From Edaphochlamys debaryana (taxonomy: Eukaryota > Chlorophyta > Chlorophyceae > Chlamydomonadales), in assembly GCA_016858145.1 (NCBI GenBank), contig JAEHOE010000180.1, positions 124,001 to 188,000 on the forward strand: 64,000 nt of DNA, written 5' to 3'. The notes below the pieces were generated by a model. The model was not told where the DNA came from. It did no database searches and saw only the letters and a program-made list of their open reading frames with translations. How positions within the stretch are numbered: the stretch's first letter is position 1; each line of letters starts with the position of its first letter. Positions 4,292-28,200 of the stretch are shown one piece after another. The position numbers and the translations under genes were made by a program.

Positions 4292-7200
4292 TCAGCTAGC
4301 TAGCGCACCACGCCATCCAGCTAACAAACCTCTAATCCTGTCTACTTCACTCCACTTCAGGAGTCGTAGTCCGCCGGCGGCGGGCTGTCGTGGTGGTGAT
4401 GGTAAGCAGCCGGTCGGTGGGCTGTCATCGTCCCACTCGTCCGCAAGTGGCGGTCTGCGGTCTGCTGTGTCCGTCTCCGGCGGCGTGTGGTTGGAGTCGG
4501 CAGCTGCAGGCGGGCTGGCGTTGGCCTCCTCCTCCGGTGAGTGGGGGGTGTCGGCGGGGGGCGGATTGGTGTCGGGGGTGTCGGGGCTGGGGCCCGCACC
4601 GCTTGCAACCACCTGGCACCTCGTGGCGCCGTACGCATCACTGCACTTCGCCAGGGCAGCCTCCTCCGCGCCCTCGAGCGTTTCATAGTTGGTAGCAGTC
4701 ACGGCCTGACTGCAGGCGGTGATCGGCACAGCCACAGCCCAACTGGCGCCCGGCTTCGTGCCATCCCTGGCTTCCTGCTCGGCCCCCTTCCAGGCACTTG
4801 AGCCGCGGCAGTCGAGCTGATCGGGGTCCTCGGGCTGAGGCGCAGGCTCAGCGGGGCTGGGGTTGTTGGGCCGTTCGGTGTAGACACGGACTGGCCACTG
4901 GGCGAGGAAGGCCAGGCCGTTGTCTCCTGTGTGGGGGCTGTTGGCGTTACGGAGCATGCGCACGTGCCCGGGGTAGGCGGGGTCGCCCCAGTTGGCGCCC
5001 CAGGAGTTGCGGATGATCCAGAAGGGGGTGCCGCTCTGAACGCCCCAGCCCACAACCGTGATGAGGTGCTGCAGGGCCGCAGGGGCGGGGGCACGCGCAG
5101 AGGGGAAAGGCTAGTGTCAGGCAGGGGGCAGCAAGGGGAGCGATAGAACGACACTGCGTGCCATACACAGCAAGGCCCCGCCGTCCAACTGCCACGCGGA
5201 GAAGGGGGCCGCGTTGCGCGCAAGGTAGAACAACAGCCACGCGACGGCACTGCTCACCCCCTTGGTGTCATCGTTGGGGCAGTCATCAGTCAGAATGCCT
5301 GCACACCACGATACGGATGGATAGAGCCTTGGCCCCGTTGGCACACATCTCCTGTAGGAGTCACGGGCCATGGCATGGGGCCAGCAGCCAGCAGTGACCG
5401 CTGGTTGGAGCGAATGAAGGGGCACCTCCGGGCCAGTGAGCTAGAGGGGCCGGGCTGGGGAAGAAGGACCCGGGGCCTGCCTATGCCCGTCCAACCAACC
5501 CTTCCAACGTGCGGTCTAATCTCATCAACTTAGCTGACAGCTCCAAGCCTAGAACAAGACCCGTCCCTGCGTGCTGCTGACCAACGCACGTCCAAACGGA
5601 ACTCACCTCCATCATTTGGTCCTCGCCGCCCGTCAGGAGCCTGTAGTCCGAGATGAACACGCGCCGGCTCTCGTCCTGGGTAGCGCGGCATTGGTGGCGC
5701 TCCACCCCCACGGAGTCCTCCATCTCGTAAGGGTAGTCCGCCTCAAGGCCCACGCCTGAGGAAGGTGGAGGATGACCGAGGGGAAGCGCTCAGGGGGAAA
5801 CAGATAGCGCAGGACGCTGCGGGCGCTACCCAGGGCTGAGCTGCACGAGGGTGGGGCAAGCTACTGTGCAGGATGACGGGGCAGGAAGACGAACGGGCAG
5901 CGCACGCACCCTTGTTCTTCATGTACTCGAACGCAATGACGTGGGAGCCTCCGAAGCAGCCCTTGTTGGTGTGGGCTGCGGATGCAGGGGCAAGCGCGGA
6001 AGGCACGCGCCAGGGTCAGCGAGCCGACAAGCCATAGCAGTTGGGCGGGGGCTGGTGAGGGTGCCTTGCTTACATCCGTAGAGGGGCTCCGAAGTGACGC
6101 AGTCCACCAGCTCCTGAGTGCTGAGGTACGGCGCCGTAGATCCGTCGTACAGCTCGGCCATGACGGTGGCCGTGGTGCCAAAGGCCCAGCAGGAGCCGCA
6201 CTGCGGGCATCGCAGGAAGAGCGTGCGAGGACAGGGAGGGCTTATTACGATCAGACACCACCCGTGCTAGTGATCTTAGTCATACAGGACATTAAGTAAA
6301 CGAGCCACTCACCGAGCCCTGCTGCTGGGCGGGCTTGAGGGCGCCCCGGTTATCTTTGGTCTTGGCAGCGCACATCGCAGAGCGGCTGATGGGAAGGGTG
6401 CCGCTCTTCACGGAATCCAGGGTGGGTGCGAACTCCACGCCCAGATCGAACAGGGCTCCGTAGATGGATGCGCTGGCGTTCTTGGGTGAGGCGGGGGGCG
6501 GGGCCTTGGTGCTGGGCTTGGAGGCGGGGGAAGGCACGCGCTGTACGGGCGGCGGGGCCTGCTGTGGGACGGCCTGCTGGGTGGGCAGGGGACGTATTCC
6601 TTGGCCCCTTGACATGCAACGAACAGCAGCTAGTAGCCAGGCGCTACTCTAGGTAGAAGCCTTTCCACTCACCGTCACGAGGCGACGGTTACGCAGGTGG
6701 TGGGCTCCGCGAAGCTGTTGCGTCCTGTCCTGCACAGTGACCCCTTCCGGCTCGCCAACGGCCTCCTCCTGGCTCCGGCGGCGGGACCCAGCGACGTCGA
6801 ACTCCATCCGCAGCTGCCAGTCCAGGGCACTGGTGACGCCAATCTACACAGAGGAGCAGAGGAGGGGGAGCGGCGTGGCGCAGAGTGAGTTCCTTTCCAG
6901 CAGGGCCTAGGAAGGCAGGCGCCACAAACGCGCTGGGGTGGGCTCGAGAAGGGCCGGAAGGGGATCCAGCTCACCGCGTAGGTCTGCTTGGGGTCGCTGT
7001 TGTGCACGAGGCCCCTCTCAATGACGTCCAGCAGGAAGCGAGCGAAGACCAGCTTGCCCTGTGGAGAGGGGTGGGGGTAGGGGGACGGGTCGGAAGGAGA
7101 CGAGGCATGGACAGGTGTTGAACACGCTTCTAAGCCCCATGGCCACACTTCCGCGGAACTGAGCAAGTACAAGGGCTTTGCCCGCTACCCCTGCAGTCCC

Positions 7201-10200
7201 CATGCGGTTGCTCACCAGCTCAGAGTCCGCTGTGTAGGTGCGGCCGTTGTCGGCGAGCCACTTGCTGAAGGCGGCGGCGGGGTCCTTCGAGGGGCAAGCA
7301 GGAGGGCACGGGCGAGGGCACTCAAGCTCCCAATCATGAGCACTGCAGCTCCTGTGAGGCTCAACACGCTACCCTCTTGCGCTCGCTGCGGTTCCCCTGG
7401 GTCCGGCTGTCACGCCCAGTTACGGGCTCGCACTGGTAGCCGCCACCTCCTTGTATACTAGGACTCGCTGCGCTGCGGGTACGCGCCCCCAAAGCTTTGC
7501 ACCGTGTTGTTTCGGTGGCACTCGCGCCCCTGGAGCTCACCGCCGCTCTAGGTGACCATGTCAGTCAAGTCACCATTAGCCAGAGGTCGTTTGCCGGCTG
7601 GTGGGTTCGCCTGCGCGCTAGCCTCTCAAGAGGCGGCTGATGGTGGTGATGCCAACCTAAGGACACATGGACGGGTCTTGCTGCCTATCCTTAGCAGTGC
7701 CTTTGGAAGGTGCCGTGGACGGCACCTTCCGACCCCAAGCAAGCGCGGCCGGCCTCCCGACTGCCGTGCAAGGCCGTGCCAAAATACACGCCTGCACCCC
7801 CCTCCGGCCCCTCTCCTCCAAGCCCTCCAACCTCGCCTCCAGGCCCCAAACAGCGGCTGGCCTGCCCACTCCTTCTGAGCCCTCGACCTGCCCAAGTCTA
7901 GCAGCACGCAACTGCCGAGCCCTTCACGACTCTCGCTCCCGCGCAACTCCTAAGGGATCCCGGTGGCAACCCGTTCACCCTCTGCACCGCACCCGCCTCA
8001 AGGCAACCGTCAACGGTCACCCATCTGCCCTCAAACCGAACGTGCCACTAAATACGCATGACAGCTGTCACGCCCAGTTACGGGCTCGCACTGGTAGCCG
8101 CCACCTCCTTGTATACTCCCCCCCACAACCTCGCGAGGCAACGAAGCAGGTTGGCACACAGATGAGGTGGCGCAACCCTCACAAACTGCCATCAGACGCA
8201 CCGCACACGGACCGACTCTCAGACGCGACGGACCCCAGCCGACGCATAGACACGCCAGCTCTACATGAATGCCCTGCCCAACGCCCCGCCCGGCTCCCAG
8301 GCCCACAAGTCAAGCACCAAGTCTCCTCAGCCTCCACAGCCTGCAAGTCCAGTCATGTCCCAAAGCTTCTGCAACCCGCACGTCAACGTTGCCCTGCACC
8401 TCTCCACCTGTCACTCGCGAACGGCAGGGCGGCCCCCATTTCAGCCACGCCCTGGAAACTCCCGTCGCGGGCCACCGACTCCCAGTTTGGGGGTCGTGCC
8501 TCCGGTCCAAACCGCCCCACCTATGCGGCCGGATCCCACCCCACTACGGCACTTGGGCGTGTGCCCCTGTAGTCCCCCAGGCTCCTCGCCTGCCTGCCCT
8601 TGTGACGCGGGTCAGGTCCCCAGGTGCCCAAACCCCCCACCCACGCGTCGTTGTAGTCCATGCCGAGCCCAAGCGCTGCAAGCGAGCAGAGCGGGGCTCG
8701 GCCTTGGCGGGGACCTTGGTCGCACTTCAGAGCCCGTAGGCCCCTCCTGCGGCGGTCCGGCCGTGAACCTACTAGCGACGCGGCCGACGTGGCCAGCGTG
8801 CAGTGGTTAGAGTTCCCCAACCCCGACCGCCTTAAGCGCACTCCAGGGCCGTAGCCCGTCCTGCGCAGCGATCGAGGCCCTCCAAACCCGCAGCAGGCCG
8901 CAAGGCGAGCCACGGGAGTGTCAGCGGGCGCCCGCAGTACCCTTAAGCGTGACACGGAACAGCAGTCCGGCGCGACGCAGGTAGCGGGGTCACCACATGC
9001 AAGCCAGGGATGACACCGAGGCGCGAGCCAGGCGTGCCAGAGCCCCAACCCAGTGGGATGTATTCACCTCCTCATCTGGCCTACAGTCAGAGGCCTCACG
9101 CGGCATGACTAGCCAGGCACCAGAGACGCCCATGATCCGGCATGACAGACCGGCAAAGGCGCCCCCGCGCCCCTCGGCGCAAGCAGCAGCAGCCCCGGCC
9201 GGAGCCGAAGCCACCACCACCCGCCCGGAGGCCCTTCTTCTCCCACCCCGATTGCAGTCTGCCGCGGCAGGTGCGCACGGGTTCTGGGGACTCCCCTCGG
9301 AGCAAGCCCCCTGCTTGACGGGCCTTAGCCCTGGCCAAGCGAGCCAACCGTTGCGGCACTCGCACACGCAGCCGACCGGAGCCAGCCACGTCTCGAGGCC
9401 CTGGACCGGTCCCATGCCCCCATACCCGACCCCGGCCGCCTCGGGCGGCTCAGGGCGAGTTGAAGAGACCCCCAAGCGGGCGGGCCCCTCCTGTTCGACG
9501 TGCGGCGACGGGCCGAAGCCGGGGCACTTGCACGTCATGGCCAGGGAGCCATCTACCACAGCCTGCGGGAGGCAGAACCTGCCGCAGGAGGGCACAGGGG
9601 AGACTTCCGGGGAAGCTCCTGGCCCCGTTCAGCACAGAGCAGCCCCACCCGCACAGGCGGGCAGGACCACCCCAGCCCCAGCGAGACAGACCGGCAGCGG
9701 GTGCAAGCACACCGCCTGGGGCTAGCAAGAGCCCCGCACCCCCCCCAGACGTCACCCGGCCGTAGGGGAGGCGCTCAACCCACCAGGGACAGGAGTCCAG
9801 CTCAGAGAAAGTTGGGCCAGACGCACGAGCTCTCCGCCCGCCAGCTCCGTCGCGCGCCTGAATGTAGCTGGACTCCACCCGTCCTGGTGGACTGCTTGCA
9901 GCCGGCGGACCGGGACGGCCCAGCTGCGCCGCAGCGGCCGCCCCAGCCGGCGGGCCACGACTGTCGCCCCCTCCGGCAACGCCGCGCAGCGCCCCGGGCG
10001 CAGCGTACGTGCAGGCCCGAACCGGCCCACCTCGTACGCCACGGTCACCCCGGGGTGCGGCTGCGACGAGGGATGCACTATGCTGGCGGCGCGAACCCAC
10101 CAGCCCAACCAGCAGCTCCCAACCCCGGCTCTCGGGCCGCCAGGGCGCGGCAACTATCCGCGTCACCCGAGGGGAAGGGAGCCGCCGGAAGCGTCCCGGC

Positions 10201-13200
10201 AGGCCGCGCCAGCCCTAAAGCCGAACATGCAAACCGGATACGTGCGCCATTCGTTGTTGTCTGAGATGCAGCCCTTACAGCCGCTTCCAGCGCTTGACTT
10301 GCGCCAGCGACGCCTCGTCCACCCCGCCGTCCTCCCAGCGGACGTAGAAGTAGCGGGGCCGCGCAAGGGCACCCCGGAACTCCAGCTGCCCGTCGCGAGG
10401 TCGGGCAGCCCGGCCCTCGCTCTGCGTGGGCTCTCGCCGGACCCAGGCCCCGTCCCACGTGGCAGCCTCGGCGTCACGTGCCCGAGTGGCCGGCCGCGGG
10501 AACATGAGGGTGCCCAGATCCTGGCGGAGCCGGCGCTCCTCCTCACGGACCTTCTGGGCCGCAGAGGGCGCTCGGCCCGCCCGCGGAGGCGGCGGGACCT
10601 GACGTCCGGGCGGCGGCGGCGGCGGCGCCGCCGCTGCCGTCGCCCCCGCCGCGGGCCTGCCTCGTCGAGGGCTGGTGCGCTTACCCCCCGGCTGCGAGAC
10701 CCCGCCGCCAGCCCTCGGCTCCGCCACATGCGCCTGCGCCTTGGGCGCCGCGGAGGCGTTCTTGGGCACTGCCGCACCGGCCCTCGCAGCCCCACCCCTG
10801 CGTGCCGACGGCCCGTCTGGGACCACCGCCACGGGAAGCTGCAGCAGCGGCGGCGGCATGGGTCGCGGCGGCGGTGCCGCAGCACCCCTGGGCGACGGCG
10901 CCGCAGCCCGCACCGCAGGTGGGATCTCCGCCGCCTGACAGTGCGGGCACAGCCAGAGGCCTGTCGGGACGGCCCGTAGCCCGAGGCATGCCAGGTGCCA
11001 GCCCGTGTTGCAGCCGTCACAGAGCAGCATGCTGCCCTCGCGCTGCGGGGATTTGCACAGCTCACAGGGCAGGGCCTTGGCCGGGCAGAAGAGGCTGGTG
11101 TCGATGATCGGGTCCACCGGCAGATGGCACGGCAGCAGCTCCTCAACGTGGCGGCGGGTGCGCGTGTTGTCGCGCCCCACCAGCACCGCCACGCCTAGGG
11201 GCCCCACCGAGAGCACCCGCAGGACTGCCTCATATTGCCCGAACTGGAGCGTGTTGGCCACCGGCTCACGCTTGATGCGCACGTAATCACCTGGGCGGAA
11301 GGTGGTGGGCTTGGCCACGACGTTGCCCTTGCGCACGGCTGCGTACCGCAGGGTGTCACGGTGCTGCGCGATGAGCAGGTTGCTGGCGGCCTCTGCGGCC
11401 GCCTGCCGCACGAAGGCAGCCCGCCGAAGCACCGCCTCGGCCGCTGCCGCGGGGGTGACGCCCTCCGAGAGCAGATCCAGCGGCGCCGACATGGGCTCCC
11501 GCACAGACGCTGGGATCACGGGGGCGATGCCGCCATACAGCAGCTCGTACGGAGAGAAGCGTGTGGAGGCCTGCGGCGAGCAGCGATAGCCGAGCAGGAG
11601 CTCAGGCACCGCCAGCTCCCACGCCGCGGGGTCCTCGGACTCGTAGCAGGTCTTGTGAAGCGCCTCCTTGAGCACTTGCACGATCCGCTCCGCCGCACCG
11701 TCAGCTTGCGGATGGTTGGGCGAGGTGTAGCGGTGGTCGATGAGGCAGCGCTGCAGCAAGTCAGCCACCTCGGCCTCCCACTCGGTGCCGTTGTTGGTCA
11801 GCAGCTCAGCTGGCGCCCCGTAGCGCGCCACAATGTCGGCGATGGCACGGTAGGTGCAGACGGCGGACTTGGCCATGATGGGGATGAGCTCGACCCACTT
11901 GGAGAAATGCTCGATCGCCACCAGCACGTACGTGCAGCCGCTAATGCGCGAGGAGACCAGTGGCCCCGCCAGGTCAACACCCCAGCGGTAGAAGAGACCA
12001 CGGATGGGGAGCGGGTGGAGGTCAGTGGGGCGCCGAGCGCCCTCCACGCGCGACAGGCTGCACGCCACGCAGCTGCGGAGAACCTGCACCACGTGCTGGG
12101 CCATCCCGTACCACCAGTAGCCCACGCGCACCAACGCCAGGGTGCGGCGCACGCCCAAGTGCCCCAGGCGCCGATGGAAGCCCAGGATGAGCTCAGGCCG
12201 CTCCCAGGGAGGGGGGCAGACCCGAGCCCGCCGTCAGCTAGGCGCCGCATGAGCTGTGTGCCGTCCCAGCGGTACAACGACGCCCGCCTGGCTAGCCTGC
12301 GGCTGAGCCGGAGGCCTGCCAGCGGCTGCTTGAGGGCCCGCAGCAGCTCCGCGTCCAGCCAGACATCCCTCGGGGAGCCGGCTTCCTCCAGCGCGCCATC
12401 CTCCTCCCGCTCCGCTGCCTCCGGCAGCTCCAGCGCCTGCTGCAGCGCCTGCGCTGTGGGCACCCCTCCCCCGAGCAGGTCCTGGGCAACCTCCGTCAGC
12501 TGCGCGTCCTCCTCCAGGCGGTCAAGCACGTACTCCTCCTCGCCCGCCAAGAAAAAGGCTGCCATGAGCGTGGGCCGTCGAGTCGGCACCGTTGGCGCAA
12601 GCTGTAGGGCCACAAGCTGTGCGACGTGGCCTGCCTCCCCCCCCAGTGCTGCGGCCGATGGTGCCGCTACCGGCTGAGGGACGCTGACGTCATGCGGCGA
12701 ATGGTAGGCACGCCTGAGGACCGATGCTGCGGCGAGGAGGTGCGTCAGAAGCACCGAGCTGGGGGCCGCGGGCATATCAACCACCGCCCCCGCCGGCGCG
12801 AGCTCCACCCAAGCCGGATGCAGGTCCAGGACGGCGATCCAGTCCGCCAGCGTTGGGCCCAGCAGCCGGTCGCCGGGGACCGAGCGTAGCGCTTGCTCGC
12901 AGGCTGCCGTCGCGGGAGGCAGGGCGCCCAGGCGCTGGCCCGGGACGTGCAGAGCGTAGTGCGGCTGGGGCACCGGCTCGAGGGCAATCATCGGCCGGCG
13001 GTCCGGAGGAAGCAGGCGCTCCAGGCGCTGGTCCTCCGCCGGCCGAAGATGGGACAGCAAGGTCCGCAGGTGCTCCGGGGTCGCGAGATTGGAGTAGGCC
13101 GCGACCATGCGGTTTTGCGCCAGCCCCGCCCGTGCCGCGTCAAGGACCACCGGCGGCCCCAGCGGAAAGCCCAGGCGGTCCTGCTCGTCCACTGTGGTCC

Positions 13201-16200
13201 TTGGCCCCAGGAGCAGGTACGCAGGGGCCGGCTGCTTGCGGCGGCGCGCCTGTAGCTGCAGCCGGCCAACCGCCTCCAGCACGTCAGCGCTGCCCCACTG
13301 GCTGGCACCTCCGAAGCTCCCCACCACCAGCCACTGCAGCCCATCCTTGAGCGGCAGCATGGAGAGCTGGCTGAGGGAGGCGCTCGGCGCCTGCCACTCC
13401 GTTTGCACGACCCGCGTGAGCCGCAGCAGCTCGGGGTGCGCCCGGGAAAGCCGCCTGAGGAGGGCGTACTCAGCTTGCCGCCAGGGGGCCCGGGACTCCA
13501 GGCTGGCGTAGCAGTGGACCGGGAGGCCCATGCGCAGGCAGGCCCATAGCCCAGCGCCCATCGAGCCCGGGAGCTCCAGGAGGGCCAGGCCTCCCGTCTC
13601 GGCCGCACCGAAGAGGGCATGCTGCACCAGGCTCGTGCCGAGCCCCAGCGGGGTCTGGGCGTCCGACTCCAGGCGCAGCGCCAGCCGGGGCGCTGGGGTC
13701 ACGCCTCGCAGCTGCGCGCTGAGGGCCTGGACCTGAGCAGCGATCCGGGGCACGGCTGGGTCCAGCCCGACGGGCCAAGCATCCCTGGGGTCACTTGCCC
13801 TGCCCTGCTCACCGTCCAGGAGGCCCTCGGCAGAGGCCACGCAGGCAACCGGGGCCCCTTGCTGCGCCTCATGGAGGGCGGCGGCTGCCGCCCGAGAGCG
13901 CCAGAGCCCAGGGATGTGCCGCACCTCCTCTGCCGCCGCCAAGGCCGAATCCGGAGCAGCCACCAGCAGCACGGAGAGGATGCCAGGCGCCGGCAGCACC
14001 TGCCTGCCCCCCGTGGCGGGCTGTACGGGGCCCGTGTGAGGGCCGTGGCCCGCCGCCACGGCCACCGCCTGGCCCTGCGCCTCCGGCTGAGCGCCCGGCT
14101 CCACGGCCTGCGGAGACACCGCGGGCGCTGGGTGAGGCCCCGTGGCCCCTGGAGGCGGGGGCCCGCGGGCCCAGGGCGGCCAGGAGCGCCCCGGGTAGGC
14201 CACGCACGAGGGCGGCGGCGGCACGGGATCGGACTCGCAGTCGAGCCTGGCACCGCTTCCGTCGTGAGAGCACGGGATGGGCGAGCGGCTGAGCGCGTCG
14301 GCGTTCTGGTTCTGCAGGCCCGGCCGGTGCACCACGTCAAAGGAGAACGGCATGAGGATGAGGGCCCAGCGAGCCGCTTGGCCCGTCAGGTCCTTAGAGC
14401 TCATCAGCCACTCCAGCGGGCCGTGGTCGGTGACCAGGGTGAAGTGGCGGCCATGCAGGTAGTACCGCAGGGTCTGGCAGGCCCAGACCACTGCCAGCAG
14501 CTCCCCCCGGTACGACCCGTACCTCGCCTCGTGGACGTTGCACGTGCGGCTGACGCAGGCCACCATGTACTCGCAGGCGGCGTCATCCAGCTGCCCCAGA
14601 ACGCCACTGAGCCCGAACTCGCTGTAGTCCATGTGCAGGATCAGCGCCCGCTCCGGGTCCATGGGCCGGAGCACCTTGCCGCCCTCAGCGAACTCGCGCT
14701 TGATGGCGTCAAAGGCTGCCTGCTGCTCCGGGCCCCACGGGTTGTGAGCCCAGTCGGTGGCCTTGGTGGTGAGCTTGGTGATGGAGGCCATCTTGGTGGA
14801 GTAGTGGTCGACGTAGCCGCGGTAGTAGCCGAAGTAGCCGAGGTTGCGCTGGCAGCCCTGCAGCGACGTGGGTGGCTGGAGAGCGAGCATGGCAGCGACC
14901 TTGGCTTGTTGGGGTGTGATGCCGCCGGGGCCGACCATGTGGCCCAGGAACTTGATGGCGTCGGCGCACAGGACGGTCTTCTCTGGGTGCAGCTTGATGC
15001 CGATGCGTACCAGCATGGCGAAGAGGCGCCGCAGCACGTCCAGCAGCTCCTCAAACGTCTCGGCCCACACTCCCACGTCGTCCACATAGGCCGCAGCGTT
15101 GTCCGCCAGCCCTGCCTCCGCCAGGTGGTAGTCCATCACGCGCTGGAACTCAGACGTAGCCGTCTTGAGGCCATACAGCAGGCGGGTGTACATCCACAGC
15201 TCGCGGCGCCACCAGAAGGCCGTTTTGGGCTGGTCCTCAGGGGCTATGTGGAGCTGGTTGAACGCCGCCCGGCAGTCGCACTTGCAGAAGAACTTCGCCT
15301 TGCCGCCCATCCGCTCGAGCAGCTGGTCAATGCGCGGCAGCTGATGCGAATCTGCCACGAGAACCTTGTTCAAGCCCCGGGCATCCTGGCAGAAGCGAAA
15401 ATCGGTCATCTGCCCCTGTGCGTCACGCTTGCCTGGCATGGTGCTGTTCATGGCGTATTTGCCATGCGGCGGAGCCGGCACGATGATCTTGGCTGCGCGT
15501 AGGCCCATGCACTTGTCGTCCATGACCGCCAGCTCCGCCGGCGTGTGCGGGCGCGGGTTCTCGAACACGCGGGCCTCCGAGCTGACGCGAAGGGAGACCG
15601 GCGGCAAGCCGCCGACGTAGCCCGGCTGCAGGTCCATCAGGCTGTGGGCGAAAATCTGCGGCTCGAACTCGGCCACCAGATCGCGTAGCCGCTGCAGCTC
15701 CTCCTCCGATACCAACGGGTGGCGGCAGAGCGTCCAGCCGCCGGGCTGCTTCTCAAACTTGGGGCACAACGGCGGCGCCCGCACTCCCTCGGGGTCCGTG
15801 GACCGGGCATCTGGAGCGCCCGGAGCCAGAGGGACCGCCAGGGGAGAGGAGCGGCCGGCGTCAACCGGCACAGGGGGCAAGTCGGGCGCCTCAAGAAACC
15901 CTTCTCGCAACCCCTCCCAGAACAGGGCGGCAGGGTGTGCTCCTGCCCTGCCGCCCGCTGCCTTTGGCGCCATTCTAGCGCCACCAGCCCCCGGGCGAGC
16001 CCGCACTCAGCGGGGCCGGGGGCCAGTGGGGCAGGCGCCGGCGCAGCAGCAGCGCCAGGCGGGAGTCAAGCACGTGCGTGTATGCAGAGTACTGGTCGAG
16101 CATCCTCAGCGCCTGCTCCGCCCCAGCGTCGCCGGGGGCCCACGCACCCACGGCCGCCAGCTGCAGCGTTGCTTGGATGCCATCAGGGCGCCGCAGCTCG

Positions 16201-19200
16201 CAGGGCGGCGGGTGCGCCGCCCACAGGGCACGGACGTGCGGTACCAGGATGCAGATGGCTCGGAGCAGACCGTGGAAACGACGGGGGTATCCCAGGCCCA
16301 CCCGCGTGTCCTCATCGCAGCCAGACAGGAAGTCCAACGCAGCGGCAGCCCAGGCAGCCCGGCGGTCGCCCGGGGTCCAGTGCCCCGCCACGAGCGTGGC
16401 CAACAGGCGGCGCAGCTGCCTTGCAGCGGGGTGGATGCTCGCCGGGTCCACGTCAGGGAGGGCTGGCTCTAGCGCCAGGACCACCACCGGCGGCGCCGAC
16501 GCCGCCAGCGAGACAGGCAGCAGCTCCTGCTGCAGGAGCAGCCACCGGTACTGGACATGCATGCCCAGGGCCACCGCCGGCTGCGGGGACCGCCGCAGGG
16601 CATGCGTGAGCTCCCGGAGCTCGCCCTCGCTGAACTCCCACGTGGCAGGGTAGAGGCCCCAATGCGCCGGGGCCGCCACCACCGCCCGCGGGCAGGAGTT
16701 GCTGGCTCCTGCGCCCAGAGCTGCCACGGCTGCCTCCGCCGCCACCTCCAGCTCGGCACCCGGCACGAACGGCCCCACCCAATAGCCGCAGCTGCGGCGT
16801 GCGTGAGGGGGATGGTGAACGTGCCCCGGCACGACGTCGTGCGGAGGGGAGGCTCCCGCCCAGGTGCACCGAGGGAAGGGGTACTGCGAAGACCTCAGCA
16901 GCACCGCCCCGGCGACACGAGGGTCAGCCAGCGCCGCGTGGAAGGCCAGCCTGCTGTCCTCGTGGGAGAGTGGCCCAAGCCACCCGCGGTCACGCTGCGG
17001 CATGGGGGCCCAGCCGATCTGGCCGGGCTGCCTCACCGCAGGGCAACCCTCCACGGGCGGGACCGCCTCCACCTGCACGGGCGAGCCCAGCTGCAGGGGC
17101 CGTCCCGCCTCCACTACCGCCACCGTGATCTCGGGAGCTCGGCGAGCAGCCCCAGGGACCACGCCCCGCTGGTACCGCGAGGAGGCCCCATCGGAGGGGG
17201 CAGCAAGCGGCAACACCGCTGCCTTGATCGCTGAGGGCACCCCCCACACAGCCCGCTCTCATGGTGGCGGGAGCGTGGGCTCGGCCGTCTGCCAGGCAGC
17301 AGCCAGAGCAGGGCCCACCCGAGGGCCCGCCGGCGGCCCCGGCCCGGCAGCAGGAGGGGGAAGGGGCGGGTGCGCTGCGTCGTCGCCAGGGGCAGGTAGC
17401 AGGGCCCGCGCCAATGCCACCTCCAGCTGCGGGGTGACCGCAATGCCCGCATGGCGGCCATGCGCGGCCCTCACCAGGGTTGCGGGCCCCGGCAGCTCTC
17501 TCAACACCTGGAGCACGCGTTGGAGCTGAGGGGACGAAGCCTGCGGGTGGAAGGCCGCGGCCTGTCTCCGCCGCTCTCCGCGGCGGCTTCCGCGGGGCCT
17601 GGGCGCCGCCTGGCCGTCCGGCGGCTGCGGTGGCCCGGCGGCCTCCAGCCGACAGCCTGGGGGCGAGCCGGCTGCGGGTCGCGCACCACCAGCGGCCGTC
17701 GTGCCGGCAGGGGCTCCCCCCCAGATACGGGCCGGTTTCCCCTGCACTCTGGCCGCCCCGCTGGGGCCCTCAAGCCCTGGGACCCAGAGGGTCCACCGCC
17801 AGGCGGCGGGGGCTGGTTTTCCTGGTCTGGCGCCACTGGCGGCGGCGGCGGCCCAGGTGGCGGCAGGGGCGCGGGCGGGGGAGGAGGCGGCGGCGCGGGC
17901 CAAGCCGGCGGCGCCTCCCCCCAGACCGGCGCTACTCGAGAGGCCGCCAGTTGCTCCTGCGCCACATGGTGCGGCACGCCCTCAGCGAGGTCTATCACGT
18001 CGCCCGCCGCCAGGTGCGGCGCCAGCAGCATGTCCCCGCCCACAGAGCTCGTGAGCCACTGCGGGGAGCATGGGGCGCCCAGCGCGAGCGGCTCCAGCGG
18101 CTCCTCTGGCAACGGAAGCTCCACGCCGCCCTGCCAGCCGCTGGGCTGTGACACCCTTGGGAGGTGTTCGTCCCTGAGTACCAGCGCTAGCGAGGCAAAG
18201 GCCCCCTGGGTGTGCAGCGGCAGCATGGGCGGCGCAGCCTGCCGCAGCTGCGGCAGCCCGGCATACCAGTTGGCCCGCACATGCGGCAGGTGCCACTCAA
18301 CGAAGAGCGCCCGCATGCGGTCCACCGCCCACGTTGGGCCCAACATTGCCACCCCCGACTCCAGCACCAGCAGAGTGACCGGCAGGCTCATTTGGGCTCC
18401 CCTCATTGCCAGCCAGTGAAGGAAGACGGACCGGTGTGGGGCCCGCCGACGGTCGCTGAGCCGCCGCTGCTGGAAGACTGAGCGGTTAATCAGCGGGTCC
18501 TCCGGATCCCGGATCCAGCTCGCCCATGTAACGGCTCAGGTCCAACGGCGGCTGTTCTGGCTCCTGCGGCTGCGCCGGCTCCGGCGGCGGTGCCGGTTGC
18601 AGCGGTGCAGGCGGCGGTGCAGGCAGCCGGAGCCCGGCCTCTGCCGCGGGCACGGCGGCCCGAGACGTGGAGTCACGAGCTACGGCCTGTCGTGTGGGGT
18701 CGGGAGCGATGCTGTCCACCGGCTCTGCCTGCTGCTCCCCCCCCAGCGTCGCGAGCGACTGCCCCAGGCCCAGGCCCAGGTTCTGCAGCTGGCGACGAGC
18801 GGCTGCGGCCATCCGCCCCCAGAGCGACTCCTCCGTGTCTTCCGTAGCTGGGTCCTCCGGCTGAGACTCCTCTGGAAGCGGAGCCGGAGGCGCGCCCGGT
18901 GGCGGGAAGGGGATTGGGGGACGGGGGATGAGCAGGGACGGCGGCGGAGCCGGCGGTAGCGGTGCCGGGGGCGGAGGCGGCATGGCCACCCCCGAGCCCG
19001 GCGGCGCCACCTCCGTCACTGGCTCTGCCGGTGGGGGCAGAGGAGCGCCAGGATGGGCAGCAGCCGCGCCACCCCGGCCTGAGCCCGCCGGGGCAGATCG
19101 GCTGCCTGACTGCGGAGGCGGCGGCGGCTGTGCGCCCGACCCCGCTGGCACTGCGCCGCCTGCACTCGGGCCACCCTCTGACGGGGGCGGCGGCGGCGGT

Positions 19201-22200
19201 GCACCGGGCCCCGCCGCTGCCGCGCCGCCCGCGCCCTGGTCCACCGGTTCTTCCTTGGCCTCTTCCGGAGGGCCCGGCCAGCAGCCCAGCTCCCGGAGGG
19301 CCATGACCTCGGCCGGCGGCTGCGGGTACCCCGTGGGCGGCCTGAGGTTCGTCAGCGGCTCCATCACCGCCCCGCCATCGCCGCCGGCTGGGAAGATGAC
19401 CCGGTAGACCGCCCCGGAGGGGCGGTTGCCGCCAGGGACGCGGAGATTGCTGGGGCAAGGCACCTGGGATGAGGAAGCGGACCCTGCCGGCGGCTAGCAA
19501 GGAGGAGCCCCAGGCAGGCCATCCACTCCCCGTGCTGCTCATACGTCCCCAGTAGCTCGCGTGGAGAGCGCGGGTCCCAGCCGGGAATGTGCGACACGTG
19601 GAAGTACCGCACCCGCGGGAGGGCAGACAGCTTGGCCAGCCAGCCAGCCCCCAGCTCCCTGAGCTTTCCTGCCGCCTGGAGGCTGGCAATGGTCTCCGTT
19701 CGCTGCGCCGGAGTCTCGCAAACCAGGCGGTCAAGCAGCTCCGCGAGCGCCCCATCCATCAGGCCCACGTTCAGCCGCTCACCATCGACGGGGAAGGAGA
19801 CGGACTCGAGAGCCTCAAGGAGGGCGAGCCCGTCCGGCCCAAAGCCGCAGAGCAGGTCCCCCACAGAGTACTTGCCGGCACGCGCACCCATGCGCAGGCA
19901 GTCCGGGACCTGGTCCGGGTCCGGCCCCTGGGCGGCATCCTCAGCTGACGAGCGCATGGCCGGAGGCGGCAGCGGACGGCGCCAGAGCGGGAACGAGTAG
20001 TGCCGCGCCAGGGTCACGTCATCAGCTTGCGGCGGCGGCAGCAGGAGAGGCGACGCCCCGGTGCGAACCATGGCCCAGAGCCCAAGGGACTGGTTGCCGT
20101 ACGGCTCGAGCGGCTCAGGGAGGGCCTCGCGCAGCTTGCCTAGCGGCTGGTAGCACCAAAGCGACCACGAGCCCACCACCCCCTGCTCCCGGCCCACCAG
20201 GAGCGTGTATGAGCCCAGCCGCCAGCTGAAGCCCGGGGGCATCAGCAGCAGGGGGCCTGGCCGGTCAGGGACGGGCAACGCCGGGCCCCGGGGCACCCCC
20301 AGCTCGTCTTGCCGCGCCATCACCTCGGTCTGCAGCTGCTCCAGCGTGCAGTCGCCCATCATGTTGGGGGTGGCCCCCCATTCAGGGATGGAGCAGGCTG
20401 CCAGCGTGACCTGCTCATCAGGGTGCTCCGGCTCGCCGAGCTCGTCCAGCCAGCCCCGCCGCCACTCGGCGTGTACCTTGCGCACCAGGGCCATGAGGTG
20501 CAGGGGGTTGACAGACCAGACGCGGTACCGGCCAGGGCCCACGTACCCGTGGCTCGGGGCCCAGCTGCCGACGCGCCTCTCGTGCTCAACGACCAGCATG
20601 CGCAGGAGGTCGGCCCACGCCATGGGCGTCTCGTGCAGCGCGTGCCTCAGCGGGCCCAGCTGCGCCTCAGTGCCGGTGGCGAGAGTCTCCGCCGCAGCCC
20701 AGCTGAACTCCTTGAAGGCCGCCTGCAACCCCGCCGGCTGCAGGCGCTCGCCATCCCGCAGCGGCATGCGGCCCTGCCCCTCCGCCTCGTCCTCAAAGAA
20801 GGTGACCCAACTCTGATGAAGGGCCGCCTCGGGCTCCCGCCAGGGCGCCGAGGGCGCATCCGGGAAGTACCCGTGCTCGAGATCCAGCCGCTCAGGCTCC
20901 CAGCGGGAGGCCAGCGCCCGGATGATGGCGCGGTGCTGCAGCATGTGCTGCTCGGGGCCGATGGCTGAGCGGACTTGGCGGTAGAGGCCCGCCATGTAGA
21001 GCCCGACACTGTGGCCCCGCAGCTGCCTCACATCCGCCTGCCGGTGGTCCAGCTCTGGCTGCGGCTCATTGCCCGCTCCCCGCACCAGCGGCCGGAGCCC
21101 GACCTCCCAGCTCGCATTGCGCCGGTCCAGGAGCGGCGTGGACTCGTACTGGGCCTGGCCAGGGGCCAAAGGGGTCCAGCGGTGCCCGGGCCGAGGGGGC
21201 TCCGGCAAGCCCCACTGCTGCCTCAGCTGCTGCACGATGCGCGTGATGGCGGCCGCGACCTCCTCGTCAATCTGGAGGCCCTGCCATGGGGGCTCGGTGT
21301 GGCTCTCCACCGAGCCCTCGTGTTCGGAGTCGGGGTAGTCCGAGCTAGACTCCCCCTCCTCCCCCTCATCCGTGCCTTCTGATGGGTCAGAGTCCCCCAA
21401 GTGGGCCCCTCCGGCCTCAGGGGCGGGCTGGCCTGCCTCCTCTCCCCACTCCTCGGGCATCTCCTCCCACTCCTCATCCTCCCATTCCTCATCCTCATCC
21501 TCGCCTTGCGGCGGCTGGTCCTGTCGCCGGCGGCGTGGGACCCTCGGCGCAGGCGGGCCACTGCCAGGCGTGGGCAGCGGCGGCGCTGCTGGCGGCGGCG
21601 GTGACGGAGGCGGCGGCGGGGGCATGGGCCCCGCCCCGCCCTGCTCGCCATGCGGCCCCGGTGGCGGAGGCGGTGGTGGCGGCGGAGGGCCCTCGACGAC
21701 GGGGGCTGGAGGCGGAGGCGGCGGCGTGGGCGGCCGCACCATTGGGTCCGCAGCCGCAGCTGCCGGCACCCCGGCGCCCCCGCCTGCGCCCTCGTCTGGG
21801 ATGGCCACCAGCGAGCGCCACGTCAAGTACTTGCGCTTGGGCTGTTCCGCCTCGGCCTCAGCCTGCTCCTCCGCCGCGGCCACCTCTGCCGTCCAGCTCT
21901 CCGGCATCCTACTCGCAGCCCGCTGTGCCTCTTGCAGGGCTGCCAGGAACGTGCGGTCCTCGTCATCCTGCACCTCCGGCTCGTCTGCCCCTGTCGTCGT
22001 GGTCCCAGACGTGGACGGGCCAGCGGCCGTCTCCCCCCCAGAGGGCAGCATGCTGGGGTCCGTAGGGGTGCCCTCGACCGGCTCCGGTGGTGGCGGTGAT
22101 GGTGGGGAGGGGAGCGGTGGCGGCGGCGGGGGCGGCGGCAGCGGGACTGGTGGCGCGGCGGGCGCATCGCGCAGGCGGAGCAGAATGTCCACGCCAGCGT

Positions 22201-25200
22201 CGCCCCGGGCTGCAGCGACCTCGTTGGCCCAGAAGGGCACGAGCACTCGCTCCGCCCCTCCCCCCCCCGCCGCGACGCCAGCCTGATGCCGCGCTAACGG
22301 CCCAGCCCCCAGGCGCAGCTCCTCCTGCCACAGCTGGAGGATGTCGGCACCCACTTGCTCACCATAGGCGGGACGCGGCACGGCCGGAGGCGGTGGCGGC
22401 GGCGGCGGCGGAGAAGGCGGTTGCTGTTGCAGCGGGGGCTCCAGCGGTGGTGGAGGCGGGCACGGGGGAAGCGGCGGCGGAGGCGGAGGCGGCGGTGGAG
22501 GGGGCGGTGGCGGCGGAGGCGGCGCGGACGCCGTCTGCAACGCGGCCTGGCCGCCCGATGCTGCACCCAGGATGCTGAGTGGGAGGGCTTGCGGGGGGCC
22601 CCCTCGGCGGGAGGGCAGCTCCAAGTGCGGGTTTGACCCCGCCAGCCGCAGAGCAGCACGCCAGCAGAGCAGGAGGTCCATGCCCACGATGCCGTGGAAC
22701 ACGGAGTTGGCTGGCGTCAGGAAGGGCCTGATCACGTCTTCCCGCTCCGCCGAGGTGCCCCACGCCACCCGGATGCGCACCTCCTGATCTGAGAGGGCGA
22801 CCTCGCCGGTCCCGGAGAGGGTGGAGACGGAAATGCCGGTGCGGGCGCCACGCAGGCCCAAGGCCTTTGCAAGCGGGTAGGTGAGCAGCGTGAGGGAGGC
22901 CCCGCTGTCCACCAGCAGCAGCAGCTGCCCCCGCCAGCCGACTAGGCCCACGAACTCAACGCCCTCCAGCAGGTAGGGTAGGAGGCGCCGCGTGGTGGGC
23001 GTGACCGGAAGGGAGCCCATGTAGACCATGCGCTGCCGCTCCTCCTCCTCCGCCTCCCGCAGCCGCTGGGACTCCACCTCCGCTCCCTCCACCCGCTCTC
23101 GGGCCCGGATGCCGAGGCGCTGCTCCACCAGGTCTAACCGGGTGAGCGCAGCCTCCAGGCGGTAGCCCTGCCGCAACAGGTCCTGCAGCAGCGCCGGGAT
23201 GGCAGCCTCCACCTGCTCCAGCAGCGGGCGCCGCCGAAGCGGCTGCGGCCATGCGATGGCCGAGCTGGCAAGGCGCGACGGCGCCGGCAGGGCTTGGAAG
23301 CCCAGCGGGATGTCCGTTCGCTCTGGCCCCCAGTCCGCCGCCCTGGATGGCGCCGTGGGGTGGAGCATGTAGAGCGAGAGCGGCTCATTGTCCAGGCCAG
23401 CGAAGTTGATGGCGTCGCCAGTGTAGCCGTCCTCGTCCCAGCTCCACTCCTCCTCCTCGACGACCGTGTGCACTCCCCTTGCTGCCGGCGAGGCCGACAC
23501 CCAGGAGGCGGGCCACCCCTCCCGGCCCCCATCGGCCGGCCCTGCATGGGCAGCCCGCTGGGCGTGCCCTGCGCCAGGGCCCACTGCCGCCGTGCTGACT
23601 CCTGCCAGGCCCCGCACCTGGCCCCCTCACCCGTGTCGGTGAGCACGATGACCGAGAGAGCGCAGCCAGAGCAGACCAGGTCTCGTGCCGTGTAGCACTC
23701 CGCTGTGTCGTGCTTGGAGTGCCTGTGCAGGGTGCACCACTTGCCCAGGTGACCGACAGGCTTCCGCGCTGCGGCCGGGAGGGGCCGCTTGACCTGGGCA
23801 TAGAGCTCTACGATTGGGTCCTTGCCGGTCCCCGCTGCCGTCTCCCAGAAGCCGGAGTCGCCGCCAGGGAGGTTGAGGTTGAGGGACTCGTACGCCGGGA
23901 TCTTCGCGGCTGTGGCGACCGTGAGGGCCACGAACCTGTCCTTAGTCCTGATCCGGCCCCTGCCCTCGCCGGCGGGATGGCCCGAGGCTGCGGGGTTCGG
24001 CGTGGGCGCCGACGGCCCAATTTCCAGTGAGGGCCCGGCCGCCGCAGCGGCAGAGGCCCCCCCTTGCGGGCGGTACGCATCCTCGCCGAACATGCCCTTG
24101 ACCGCATGGAGGAACGCCGCAATGTCGTCCGGCGTCAGGACGCAGTCGCCCTTCTCGCTTTGCAGGTTTATCTCCTTGGTGGCTAGCTGCACCGCCGCAA
24201 TGCTGCCGCTGGGCACAAACAGTTTGCGCAGCATGCTGGTCAGCAGCATTGGCGGCCGCTCAATCTCCGGGAGATGGCTTGTTGTCTGCCGCAGGCGCAC
24301 CAGGACGTCACGCGCCGGCTCGTTGGGCTTGCGCTGGAAGTCCCGCAGCAGGCCAGTGGTGGTGATGCGGTCAGGGCGACGGTCGCGGACCAGCCCAGCC
24401 CACCACATGTCGTACAGGGAATCCACGAGGCAGGAGCCGTCCTGGGCGCTGTACAGGGGCAGGCCCTTCCAGGGCTCACTGGCGGCGCCCGGCGGGAGGC
24501 GATCCTGAGGGACCTGCTCGCACGCCGCGCGATGCTTGGAGATCAGCGCCTCAACGTTGCTGACGTGCCAGTCCAGGGCCTTGCCCTGCAGCGTAGCCTG
24601 CGCCACTCGCCGAATGAGCGCCTCCTGCGAGGGCGCCTCCGCCCTCTCCTTTGCCGAGCGGGGGTCCAGCGCGCCCCCGTACATATCGTGGCGTAAGTGC
24701 GCGTGGCCTCCGTGGCATGCGGGAGGAGCTCCGGTTCGCCCTGGTACGGACTAGCTGGGAAGCGTGCCCTGAGGTTGAGCTCCCAAAGCTTGGGACTGGC
24801 GGCGGCGCCAGCCCCCAGCATCGCCACCGGCGGCGGGAGGTCCGCCCCCGGGGTCGAGGCACCTGGGCCCGGCGGGGCCCCGGGAGGGCCCGCCGGAGGG
24901 TCGCCGGCGGGTGGTGCAGTCTCAGGGGGTGGCGGGACAGGGGACAGCACGGGCTGGGCCTGCGGTGTGGCGGCCGTCGCGCCCGCTGGGTCTTGCGCAG
25001 CTGCCGCCGCGGCGGGTGGCGGGGGGATCTGGGCAGGGGCCGCTGCCCCCGCCGCCCCCGTGCCAGCACCCTCCCCTGCGGGTGCCGCGGCCCCGTAGTA
25101 GTGGTGGTGCACCACCTGCTGCCGGGAGCTGCGCGTGACCATGCTGGAGGCCGTCTGGTAGGTGCTCTGCGAGCGGACACTGCCGGCGCGGCAGCCCGAC

Positions 25201-28200
25201 CTCCGGCTGACGCCGCTGGCCCCACTCCCGGATGGTGGAGGGGGGGGCTGCGCCCGTCGGAGCCTCTCTCGCACGTCCACGAATCGGTCAAACTGCCGCT
25301 GCACGGCCCGGTCCAGCTTGGGCAGCAGCTCGTACCAGGCAGCGGCGTCCTGACGCAGCTCCCTGACCCTTGCCCCATCGCCCGCATTTAGCGCCAGGGC
25401 CAGCATGCGGCCGCACTCACTGGAGTCTTGGAGGGCCTGGTTGCGCTCCTGCTTGCGCCGAAGGTACTCCCCCCTTGCCGCGTCCACCTCCTGGCTCGTC
25501 GGTGGCGGCCGCTGCGCCCGCGGGTGCGAGCGCTCGGAGCGCGCCCCGCGGCGGGCCTCCGGGGCCTGGGCCGCCGGGAGCTCCCGCTCGGCTGGCGTCC
25601 CGTCCCGGGCTCCCTCCTCCGCCGCCCTCACGGGGGCGATGCGCGCCTCCGGGACCCGCGGCCCCTCCTGAATGGGCCCCAGGGCCGCGCGGCCAGAGGA
25701 GGCCTGGGAAGCTGACTCGAAGTCAGTGCTGGTGACCCAGGACTCCGTACGGCTGGGGCGGTACGTGGAGCCGGAGGAGATGGAGTCGGAGGAGGAAGAG
25801 GGGGAGCCTGGGGGAGGCGCCGTACGCCTAGGGGCGGGCGCGTGTCGCGGGAGCCCCAGCGCCGAGCCGTCCAGGTCGAGATCACGCAGCTCTGCCTCAA
25901 GCTGGCGGGCCTGCTCCACCGCCGCCTGCAGCGTGGTGGGCCTGAGCTGAGGGGTAACCTCCGGGCGGGGGCCCGGCGGCGCAAAGGTGATGGAGGCGGT
26001 GGGCGTGGCCGCCGCGCGGGCGCGCTGCTCTGCCTGGAAAGTGGCTATCTCCCGCTGCTGGCGCACTGCCCGCCGGTAGGCATGAAGCCACTCCGGCGGC
26101 TGGGCTGGGCCGGTGGGGGCCGCGGGGTCGTCTGTGTCCCGGATGATGGGCGGGGCGGCCGAGGTCAGGTTGGGCTCCTCCGCCCAGCTGACCAGGTTGA
26201 CCGCCTCCCTGGGGGCGTGCCCGGCGCGCACCAGCAGGCTCGCCAGGCAACCCCCGAGCCCATGCCCCGGGCGGCCGCTAAAGACCGCCGTCTGGAGGAC
26301 CGAAGCCAGTTCCTCCGGCGTGTCTGCCTGGAGGACGTAGAGGGGGACCTCTGGGGCTGGCTGAGCCGGAGTGGCCGAGCCGGGAGTCCCGTACACGGTG
26401 CCCGCCTCGGACCTGCCCTGTGGGGACTGGTCCCGGGAGCCTGGGCGTGAGAGCCGCCCCCTGGAGGCCTCCCATGCCGCAGCCCACGCGGCCTGACTGT
26501 CCGTGCCCGGCCCCACCGCCCCTGCCCCTGCATCCGGCCGAATCTCTGCGGGGGTCCCGGGAGGGGCGTCTGACGGGGCGGCGCGTTGGGTCGTGGTGGC
26601 AGCTGCGGCGCGGTTGCCCGCTCCAGCAGCCGCCCCAGCCTCTTCCGCTGCTCCGGCGCTTGTTACTCCCTGGGCCCCCCGCATCAACTGGTTCATCTGC
26701 CGGTGCTTGGGGCTGAGGGTTGGCAGGGCTACGGGGACTGCCTCCGGGGCGATTCCAGCGACCCTTGGCGAGCGCCGGACCTGGAGCTCGGCCGCCAAGC
26801 CCCGCCGCACTGGGTCCCCTCGTGAGTCGCGCGACACGGGCTCCGAGCGGGTGGGGGACACAGGCCTGCTTCCCAGCTGGGAGCCAGCCTCCGTGGCGGC
26901 CCGTGGCGACCGACGGGTGCCGTGGGAAGCCGCCACCGGCGGACGGGATGAGGGGGAGGGATGAGGGTTGGGCGCCACAGTCGCAGAGGTCCCCACCCCT
27001 GCCGTGGGCACCCGAGCGGCCCCGCCTGGGAGCCTGTGCGCTCCAGCGGCGGAGCCGTGTGCTGGTGGGGTGGCCCCTGCGGCAGCCGGAGCCGCCTGCG
27101 GGGCCGACGCCCTACTACCGGGGGTGGCTTCGGCAGCAGCTGACGCCGCGCCATGCGCACTTCCCCCCTTCCGGTTCGGCTGAACCATGCTAAATCAGTG
27201 CCACTGGCCTACGGAGACTCTTGAGCGGCAACCTGCGGATGGCAATGCGACCGACCCAGCTGTCAGGCGTCGCCCTAACTCCGTAGGACTAGCTGGTCTA
27301 CTCGTCTTTGCGGCCCCGGTGCCAAGCCCTGCCGCCCCAAAGGCCCTGAGGCTCACCAGGGGCGGCTCGCGGCCGCGCGACCTGGTCGCGGCTGCTAAGG
27401 GCTCGGCTCCAGAGGCAAGCCGCGCCGACTTTCGACCTGCGTCCAATGGGAAGCACAACAATAGCTCAGCTCCTTGGCACAGCCTTAGGACTCCAGGTTC
27501 GCGTGTCGCAGCGTCCGTCGGGGGTTCGCGAGCTGGCCGCCTGTCGCGTCGACGAGTGGTGCGCTCAGAGGCCCACTGAAGTCCTCTTCCCAATTCCCGG
27601 TCCAAACCCAGGCAGTCGGGGCTTTGGGGAGCGGGCCGACCAAACTCCCCGGCGCAACGCCGCCCACTCGTCTTAGAGCGACGAGCTCAAGGCCAGCGCT
27701 TGCACGCTTGTTAACCTCTGCTGAAACAAGCGCCCAGCCTAGACCGCCGGTTCCCAGAACGCAAGACCGAGCGTCCCCGATGATGCGCTCCGGGCTGCTG
27801 AACACCCCTGGAAAGTGCCCAGCTTTGGCCGTGGGCCCTGCTGGTTACTGTAAGACCGGCAGGGGACCTTCCAAAGGCAAGGACTCGCTGCGCTGCGGGT
27901 ACGCGCCCCCAAAGCTTTGCACCGTGTTGTTTCGGTGGCACTCGCGCCCCTGGAGCTCACCGCCGCTCTAGGTGACCATGTCAGTCAAGTCACCATTAGC
28001 CAGAGGTCGTTTGCCGGCTGGTGGGTTCGCCTGCGCGCTAGCCTCTCAAGAGGCGGCTGATGGTGGTGATGCCAACCTAAGGACACATGGACGGGTCTTG
28101 CTGCCTATCCTTAGCAGTGCCTTTGGAAGGTGCCGTGGACGGCACCTTCCGACCCCAAGCAAGCGCGGCCGGCCTCCCGACTGCCGTGCAAGGCCGTGCC

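Follow-up and report, generated by a model that had tools for sequence, protein, structure and literature searches.

The Edaphochlamys debaryana DNA analyzed here, a stretch of 64,000 nucleotides (the window, whose positions serve as coordinates throughout), contains on its minus strand a Ty3/gypsy retrotransposon whose Pol polyprotein carries an additional domain between RNase H and integrase. Sequence comparisons and, more weakly, structural models indicate that this domain is derived from a DNMT3-type cytosine methyltransferase, that it is catalytically dead, and that it has been conserved in this state, a reading to which we assign a probability of about 0.85. The analysis supports the existence of a conserved, apparently inactive DNMT3-type domain whose place between RNase H and integrase is constant and which is usually accompanied by a PHD finger, and supports its fixation in the Pol protein of a volvocine-algal Ty3/gypsy lineage with split repeats resembling those of DIRS elements. 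For this identity taken together with the role proposed below, the odds are about even.

A methyltransferase-like domain in Pol

The domain and its motifs are encoded in the minus-strand frame beginning at 16006, as are all of the motif strings quoted in the preliminary description of this DNA:

12677..13648, minus strand: putative DNMT3-derived pseudo-methyltransferase domain, approximately 325 amino acids, residues 787-1110 of the frame from 16006, between RNase H and integrase
13547..13588, minus strand: motif I-like LALLELPGSMGAGL
13510-13493, minus strand: YASLES
13292..13339, minus strand: motif IV-like LQWLVVGSFGGASQWG, without Pro-Cys; the model shows QWLVVGS as a strand
13199..13231, minus strand: motif VI position, PAPAYLLLGPR; the Glu is absent in the window copy (Leu)
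13082..13159, minus strand: motif VIII-like GPPVVLDAARAGLAQNRMVAAYSNLA
12809..12856, minus strand: motif IX-like PTLADWIAVLDLHPAW
12686..12760, minus strand: motif X-like block ending in LRRAYHSPHDV (LLGRSWSVPVI in DNMT3A); the likeness to motif X is our reading

The preliminary description had placed the domain at 13050..13650. The site was right, but the domain is longer, extending from about 13648 to 12677 and including the motif IX-like and X-like blocks.

Relatives of the domain

The genome searched comprises 142 Mb in 502 contigs. A 651-amino-acid query from the window matched at least 70 places, 65 of them at 31-36% identity, and searches with the domain of another family and with that of copy L050 matched at least 99 and at least 87 places, respectively. 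Twenty-five copies from other families form three clusters at 75% identity that are mutually 43-73% identical; the window family and the L050 set bring the number of clusters in the genome to five. A direct match links the L050 and window domains (E 3.9e-09; 29% identity, covering L050 query residues 63-404), and L050 is among the most DNMT3-like rows (VVAELYGGLAPGLEACLRAGLPVQRYVYAD, GSPLVADSALFGSGVHQVYRFWTNLSEP). A further frame-broken lineage of the domain, L055 (C20:316300-317900), is 45-46% identical to L050 and is interrupted near motif IV.

Outside this genome, two proteins, P0003 and the Tetrabaena socialis protein P0004, each contain reverse transcriptase (truncated in P0003), RNase H, the domain, integrase and a PHD finger. 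The middle of the P0004 domain is unaligned, as if the gene model were off, so that its catalytic state cannot be judged. Three protein searches, in each of which only the best 8000 candidates were scored, returned 2, 2 and 5 proteins, and the five from the third search have ordinary Gypsy Pfam domains. No relative of the domain was present among 55 pattern matches in viral contigs, and PHROGs yielded weak matches only (E of at least 0.23).

Likeness to DNMT3 in sequence and predicted structure

A profile of ten rows (alignment A4), nine from this genome including the window plus P0003, was compared with the catalytic domain of DNMT3A using hhalign. The three best local blocks correspond to motif I, motifs VI-VIII and motifs IX-X, and lie in order on one diagonal with a summed score of 65.7, or 66.8 without the window row. 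Among 400 shuffles the best score was 33.5 with the window included and 25.8 with it left out, and three collinear blocks occurred in none. The same test gave 15.1 for M.HhaI, 20.3-21.6 for Dcm, 13.7 for RsmA and 10.0-14.6 for Dam, the best matches of M.HhaI and Dcm falling on the motif IX columns of the family. Eight unrelated Escherichia coli proteins scored 10.6-19.9, and the thirds of DNMT3A in permuted order scored 26.3-50.1. A host exon that we read as DNMT1-like reached 16.7-18.0, at the motif VIII columns, and another host exon, with an ENV motif, matched nothing (9.6-10.0). Local blocks were used in place of a global hhalign alignment of the profile with DNMT3A, which had a score of 0.4 and a meaningless end-to-end placement. 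The collinear motifs I, VIII and IX/X expected of descent from DNMT3 were found at the profile level, and more weakly by hmmsearch. A chance likeness was rejected by controls that used shuffled, reversed and block-permuted sequences as well as unrelated proteins, with hmmsearch alone being marginal, and Pfam gave no support to the candidate that the region is some other insert known from the interval between RNase H and integrase.

Structure prediction, proposed in the preliminary description as a check, pointed weakly in the same direction, and the outcome named there as refuting, a prediction lacking a Rossmann-like methyltransferase fold, did not arise. Both AlphaFold models, which are of low confidence, show a Rossmann-like methyltransferase core, and DNMT3 structures are top or tied for top among their matches; DNMT3 chains account for 30/50, 39/50 and 38/50 of the listed rows in three structure-search lists. 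For the window model, most DNMT3 rows cover residues 90-355, through motif X, and KsgA rows end at 261.

Several observations weigh against this relationship. Single rows of the profile differ in their scores against DNMT3A. L005 (48.3), L050 (42.7), P0003 (38.4), L008 (37.5) and L052 (21.7) are the highest; L021 (17.7), L016 (17.5), L007 (15.0), L013 (14.9) and the window itself (13.1) fall within the range of the controls. Because the window alone scores at the level of unrelated proteins, its link to DNMT3 runs through its relatives. In hmmsearch the profile matched DNMT3A with an E of 0.0019, and 5 of 5000 shuffles scored higher. At E values up to 10, no Pfam family matches the interval from RNase H to integrase and PF00145 matches no copy scanned, and sequence searches of the PDB gave either nothing or weak matches with E of at least 0.21. 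Finally, the mean predicted local distance difference test score (pLDDT) is 45 in both AlphaFold models, and for the window model a KsgA chain, with the same Z as DNMT3, is listed first.

Loss of the catalytic motif

The catalytic state was assessed in a 32-row alignment of 30 copies from this genome including the window, the gene model of one of these copies (P0002), and P0003. The motif IV strings are LVVGSFGGASQWG, CVLGKFGALEEPP, LVLANLDSYRAPP, LVLGNLDSTLAPP, LVVAFWARGDTTA and similar ones. Pro-Cys is present at motif IV in none of the 32 rows, and in 31 of them the whole interval from motif I to motif VIII is free of it. The placement of motif IV rests on the alignment and on the modeled fourth strand (QWLVVGS); for 31 rows it matters little, because these rows lack Pro-Cys throughout that interval. 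Two points qualify this result. MAFFT sets the Pro-Cys of DNMT3A opposite a stretch upstream of the assigned motif IV, and P0003 has one Pro-Cys, 61 residues past the start of motif I (73 in DNMT3A). The latter sits before the modeled strand, where other families have Pro-Trp; it could conceivably be a displaced nucleophile. The C20 lineage, which is outside the 32 rows, has no Pro-Cys around its interruption. The search for relatives retaining Pro-Cys, suggested in the preliminary description, thus yielded none at motif IV among those examined, and one Pro-Cys elsewhere, in P0003.

The preliminary description had also stated that the motif VI Glu is absent. Both Pro-Cys and this Glu are indeed missing from the window copy, but Glu occupies the motif VI position in 25 of the 32 rows; it is replaced by Leu in the window family, by Gly in the L050 set and by Ala in P0003. 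Twenty-eight of the 32 rows contain a block resembling motif X, L-x-R-A-[YF]-x-x-P-H, in which one row has His in place of Arg. Alignments A1 and A4 show no variation in the motif I acid and Gly-Leu pair (E...GLEACLRAG); the Phe-Asp of DNMT3A motif I is kept in no family, and the motif differs between families. The window copy therefore has none of the marks by which an active C5 cytosine methyltransferase was judged, namely a PF00145 score, the motif IV Pro-Cys and the motif VI Glu. C5 methyltransferases without Pro-Cys cannot carry out C5 methyl transfer by the known route. These data support the view that the domain has lost, as far as its sequence tells, the catalytic Pro-Cys and part of the residues that contact S-adenosylmethionine (SAM). 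A catalytically dead, DNMT3-like fold inside a Ty3/gypsy polyprotein that also has a PHD finger, as originally proposed, is supported by the profile blocks, the low-confidence models and a motif IV without Pro-Cys.

Selection on the domain

The window copy and a second copy, on contig C242, differ by a dN of 0.021 and a dS of 0.071, a ratio of 0.30 over residues 600-1250, with 100-codon windows ranging from 0 to 0.58. We compared 21 further copies in four sets. Pairs with a dS above 0.1, available in three sets, have ratios of nonsynonymous to synonymous substitution (Ka/Ks) of 0.08-0.20; the fourth set contains only close pairs (dS 0.02-0.09) with ratios of 0.14-0.53. Over all pairs with a dS below 0.1 the ratios scatter from 0.09 to 0.89, as is expected when changes are few. 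Among 99 listed genome matches, 84 have no internal stop and 15 have stops. The absence of stops in the aligned rows is no evidence, because these rows were cut from open frames. Invariant columns are common to Edaphochlamys, P0003 and, where readable, Tetrabaena.

Judged from these substitution patterns, the domain was maintained in its inactive state as its lineages diverged. Since it has lost Pro-Cys yet been kept intact by selection, we regard it as a pseudoenzyme and not a relic. The preliminary description had left the choice between a decayed and a repurposed domain; decay is disfavored by the Ka/Ks between diverged copies, and "repurposed" is the better half of the phrase because relatives conserve the inactive state.

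Structure of the element

The features of the element outside the methyltransferase-like domain are as follows:

7408..28483, minus strand: whole Ty3/gypsy element, 21,076 bp, with outer ends TGTCA...TGACA
7404-7407 and 28484-28487, flanks of the element: 4-bp target duplication GCCG
27880..28483, minus strand: A1 repeat, 604 bp, resembling a 5' long terminal repeat (LTR); 99.67% identity with A2
7460..8063, minus strand: A2 repeat, 604 bp, 3' LTR-like
8064..8117, minus strand: B1 repeat, 54 bp, directly inside A2
7406..7459, minus strand: B2 repeat, 54 bp, outside A2 and identical to B1; its last two bases belong to the target duplication
22676..22918, minus strand: aspartic protease PF13650, E 2.5e-05, in open reading frame (ORF) 19364-23626
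14936..15409, minus strand: reverse transcriptase PF00078 (Pfam), YVDD present, frame from 16006
14345..14659, minus strand: RNase H PF17917 (Pfam), frame from 16006
12051..12212, minus strand: integrase zinc-binding H2C2 PF17921 (Pfam), in a frame different from that of the methyltransferase-like domain
11709..11951, minus strand: integrase core rve PF00665, E 9.4e-06, 26.3 bits and thus below the Pfam cut-off of 32.6
10938..11066, minus strand: PHD finger PF00628, E 2.5e-08, behind integrase

The Pfam domains give the Ty3/gypsy order of protease, reverse transcriptase, RNase H and rve integrase, and the rve matches of P0003 and P0004 are above the Pfam cut-off. The frame changes at 12260-12210, between the methyltransferase-like domain and integrase, in both the window and the C242 copies. 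The integrase acidic triad is incomplete in the window copy despite the near-identity of its A repeats, and complete in the C242 copy. Two long ORFs of the element upstream of reverse transcriptase, 15978-18535 and 24546-27194, have no Pfam match. The former lies partly within gene model HYH03_017795 of E. debaryana, to which window ORFs are 100% identical over 95% of the query region.

The PHD finger that had been described in the same element was confirmed as the PF00628 match behind integrase; Pfam shows neither a PHD nor an ADD domain N-terminal to the methyltransferase-like domain in the frame from 16006. A PHD pattern also lies 3' of the domain in the C145, C18, C107 and C242 copies. None was found in the scanned chunk of C2. 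In copies such as C145 and C18, domain and PHD finger lie within one open frame. The PHD sequences (CELCGLPGDGKRMLLCDGCNSGWHTYCLKPPLKRVPRGEWLCPDC in C18) may resemble fingers that read unmodified H3K4.

Because block B occurs on both sides of A2, the repeat order is A1-coding-B1-A2-B2, a split, DIRS-like arrangement, and the element has no plain LTRs. The B1/A2 junction reads TGACA-GC-TGTCA, resembling a circle junction. The C242 copy, whose domain region is 96% identical to that of the window copy, carries the same repeats, with GAGG as its target duplication. The C145 copy, from another family, has an A repeat of 390 bp (interrupted in A1), a B repeat of 50 bp and a target duplication of TCGC. 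These two and the window copy are the three of six copies examined with flanks in which the full A-coding-B-A-B arrangement is present; among the others, C18 has B-A-B only, and no split repeats were found in C2 and C107. The termini are of the TG...CA type, and a 4-bp duplication is present in all three copies having both ends. No member of the phage-integrase (tyrosine recombinase) family was detected by Pfam among seven element ORFs scanned. An rve integrase in a split-repeat element would provide a system for asking how such repeats replicate.

The element is inserted in a tandem duplication of approximately 5.4 kb, in which blocks within 21-1877 resemble blocks within 5601-7288, and its right flank (28498-28670) is 97% identical to 2036-2208. 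ARAGORN reports a tRNA-Arg (TCT) at 26098-26190 on the plus strand inside the element, which may be spurious. Elsewhere in the window, an open frame at 32229-35462 encodes 1078 amino acids with 11 LysM domains and spans 213-bp tandem repeats at 32910-34168.

Host methyltransferases and the proposed role of the domain

PF00145 has two short exon matches in the genome, in C24 and C30. The C30 exons, near 143448 (L030), belong to a host methyltransferase with GGPPCQG and ENV motifs and look active; we read them as DNMT1/MET1-like. The identity of the C24 exon could not be made out. DNMT3A had no match in the whole genome in a search run without a positive control, and a transcriptome survey (PMC9998398) could not identify DNMT3 in its green algae.

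In the mechanism that we consider most likely, the domain, freed from catalysis, would bind nucleic acid and partners as a module of the Pol/integrase particle. It may fold with or near integrase after proteolysis, and together with the PHD finger behind integrase it would steer or dock the integration complex on host chromatin. We put the chance of this docking mechanism at somewhat below even. The main rival, which we consider unlikely, is that the domain acts as an anti-silencing decoy: bound to the DNA methyltransferase of the host, to the cofactor of that enzyme or to target DNA, it would block methylation of the element's DNA in a dominant-negative manner. The host does have active-looking methyltransferase exons, for which a dead fold of the same kind would be a natural competitor, and PMC5890265 deals with retrotransposons in conflict with host methylation. 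However, the host gene, unlike the domain, is not DNMT3-like; neither the uncontrolled genome search nor the PMC9998398 survey provides a host DNMT3; and the domain lies inside Pol beside integrase and the PHD finger and is not a separate protein.

Other explanations concern the nature of the domain itself. Quite improbably, it could still bind SAM and have an activity: it might sense the cofactor, or it might be a methyltransferase whose chemistry has been relocated or whose substrate is different, for example the element RNA. The invariant motif I acid and Gly-Leu pair, the R-A-[YF] of the motif X-like block, the frequent motif VI Glu and the Pro-Cys of P0003, before the strand taken for motif IV, would fit this, but Pro-Cys is missing from motif IV in every aligned row, the DNMT3A Phe-Asp is kept in no family, and no DPPY-type motif was seen by eye. 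That the domain has a different class I methyltransferase fold, or is a Rossmann domain of another kind, and resembles DNMT3 by chance is very unlikely: the Pfam and PDB sequence searches without significant match, the low model confidence and the KsgA tie are countered by the collinear, DNMT3-specific profile signal with its controls, and by the reach of most DNMT3 rows to motif X, beyond the end of the KsgA rows. Least credible is a decaying passenger, a captured DNMT3 that lost its activity and is drifting. Near-identical pairs reach a Ka/Ks of 0.89 at a dS of 0.01-0.03, as would dead genomic copies, some listed matches contain stops, and the window copy has other lesions (its frame break and integrase triad) and uneven 100-codon ratios; against this stand the low Ka/Ks between diverged copies in three sets, the invariant columns shared with P0003 and, where readable, Tetrabaena, and the stop-free state of most listed matches.

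Comparison with known systems

Retrotransposons with active DNMT3 are already known from streptophytes and dinoflagellates. PMC12344493 gives the carriers as Copia and DIRS elements, and PMC5890265 as Gypsy and DIRS elements; we follow the latter. Methylase-bearing retrotransposons in green algae are mentioned in general terms in PMC6338049, and the Edaphochlamys genome paper (PMC8226300) mentions Gypsy elements, the word methyltransferase being absent from its main text. By the terms searched, the open-license literature yielded no description of a retrotransposon with a DNMT3 domain that is dead yet conserved. That the nucleophile is missing in every row examined yet the domain is conserved suggests that the fold itself can be useful to a mobile element, and that a silencing enzyme has taken on a new, non-enzymatic function within a genome parasite. 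Because the only DNMT3-like sequence found in the genome sits in elements, the function of the domain might be testable without an interfering host DNMT3.

The closest parallels are described in PMC5890265. KnitGypsy-Dnmt3 of Klebsormidium nitens (de Mendoza et al. 2018) is an LTR Gypsy element with DNMT3 in Pol, no introns and a Ka/Ks below 0.2, and combines Gypsy domains with DIRS-like repeats. The Edaphochlamys family resembles it in each of these respects. In the description of KnitGypsy-Dnmt3 we saw neither its domain order nor mention of a PHD finger. Unlike KnitGypsy-Dnmt3, in which key DNMT3 residues of the active site are conserved, it lacks the motif IV Pro-Cys in every row examined, and its host is a chlorophyte and not a streptophyte. 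SymbioDIRS-Dnmt3 of Symbiodinium is likewise a retroelement with a DNMT3 domain and split repeats, but it is a tyrosine-recombinase DIRS element with functional DNMT3 residues, in contrast to the rve integrase, target-site duplications and dead domain found here.

Chromoviruses are Ty3/gypsy elements with the order reverse transcriptase, RNase H, integrase and a chromatin reader after integrase. The element described here shares this order and has a chromatin-reader type of domain in the same place; it differs in that the reader is a PHD finger, in the extra methyltransferase-like domain before integrase, and in having split repeats and not plain LTRs.

DNMT3L, as described in PMC6316889, combines a DNMT3-family methyltransferase-like domain lacking essential catalytic motifs with a histone-reading zinc finger. 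The Edaphochlamys element likewise pairs a DNMT3-type domain, dead by sequence, with a zinc finger. The ADD domain of DNMT3L is N-terminal, whereas here a classical PHD finger lies beyond integrase in a retroelement, and DNMT3L has DNMT3A/B as partners, whereas no DNMT3 partner is known in this host. Tentatively, and as a scenario that remains doubtful, a DNMT3-carrying, split-repeat Gypsy lineage may predate the divide between streptophytes and chlorophytes or have crossed it; among volvocine algae, in which DNMT3 may be missing from the nuclear genome, the methyltransferase of this lineage would have become a fixed non-catalytic factor acting with the PHD finger in integration targeting or anti-silencing, an independent, parasite-borne equivalent of DNMT3L. 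If true, the DNMT3L design would have arisen independently a second time.

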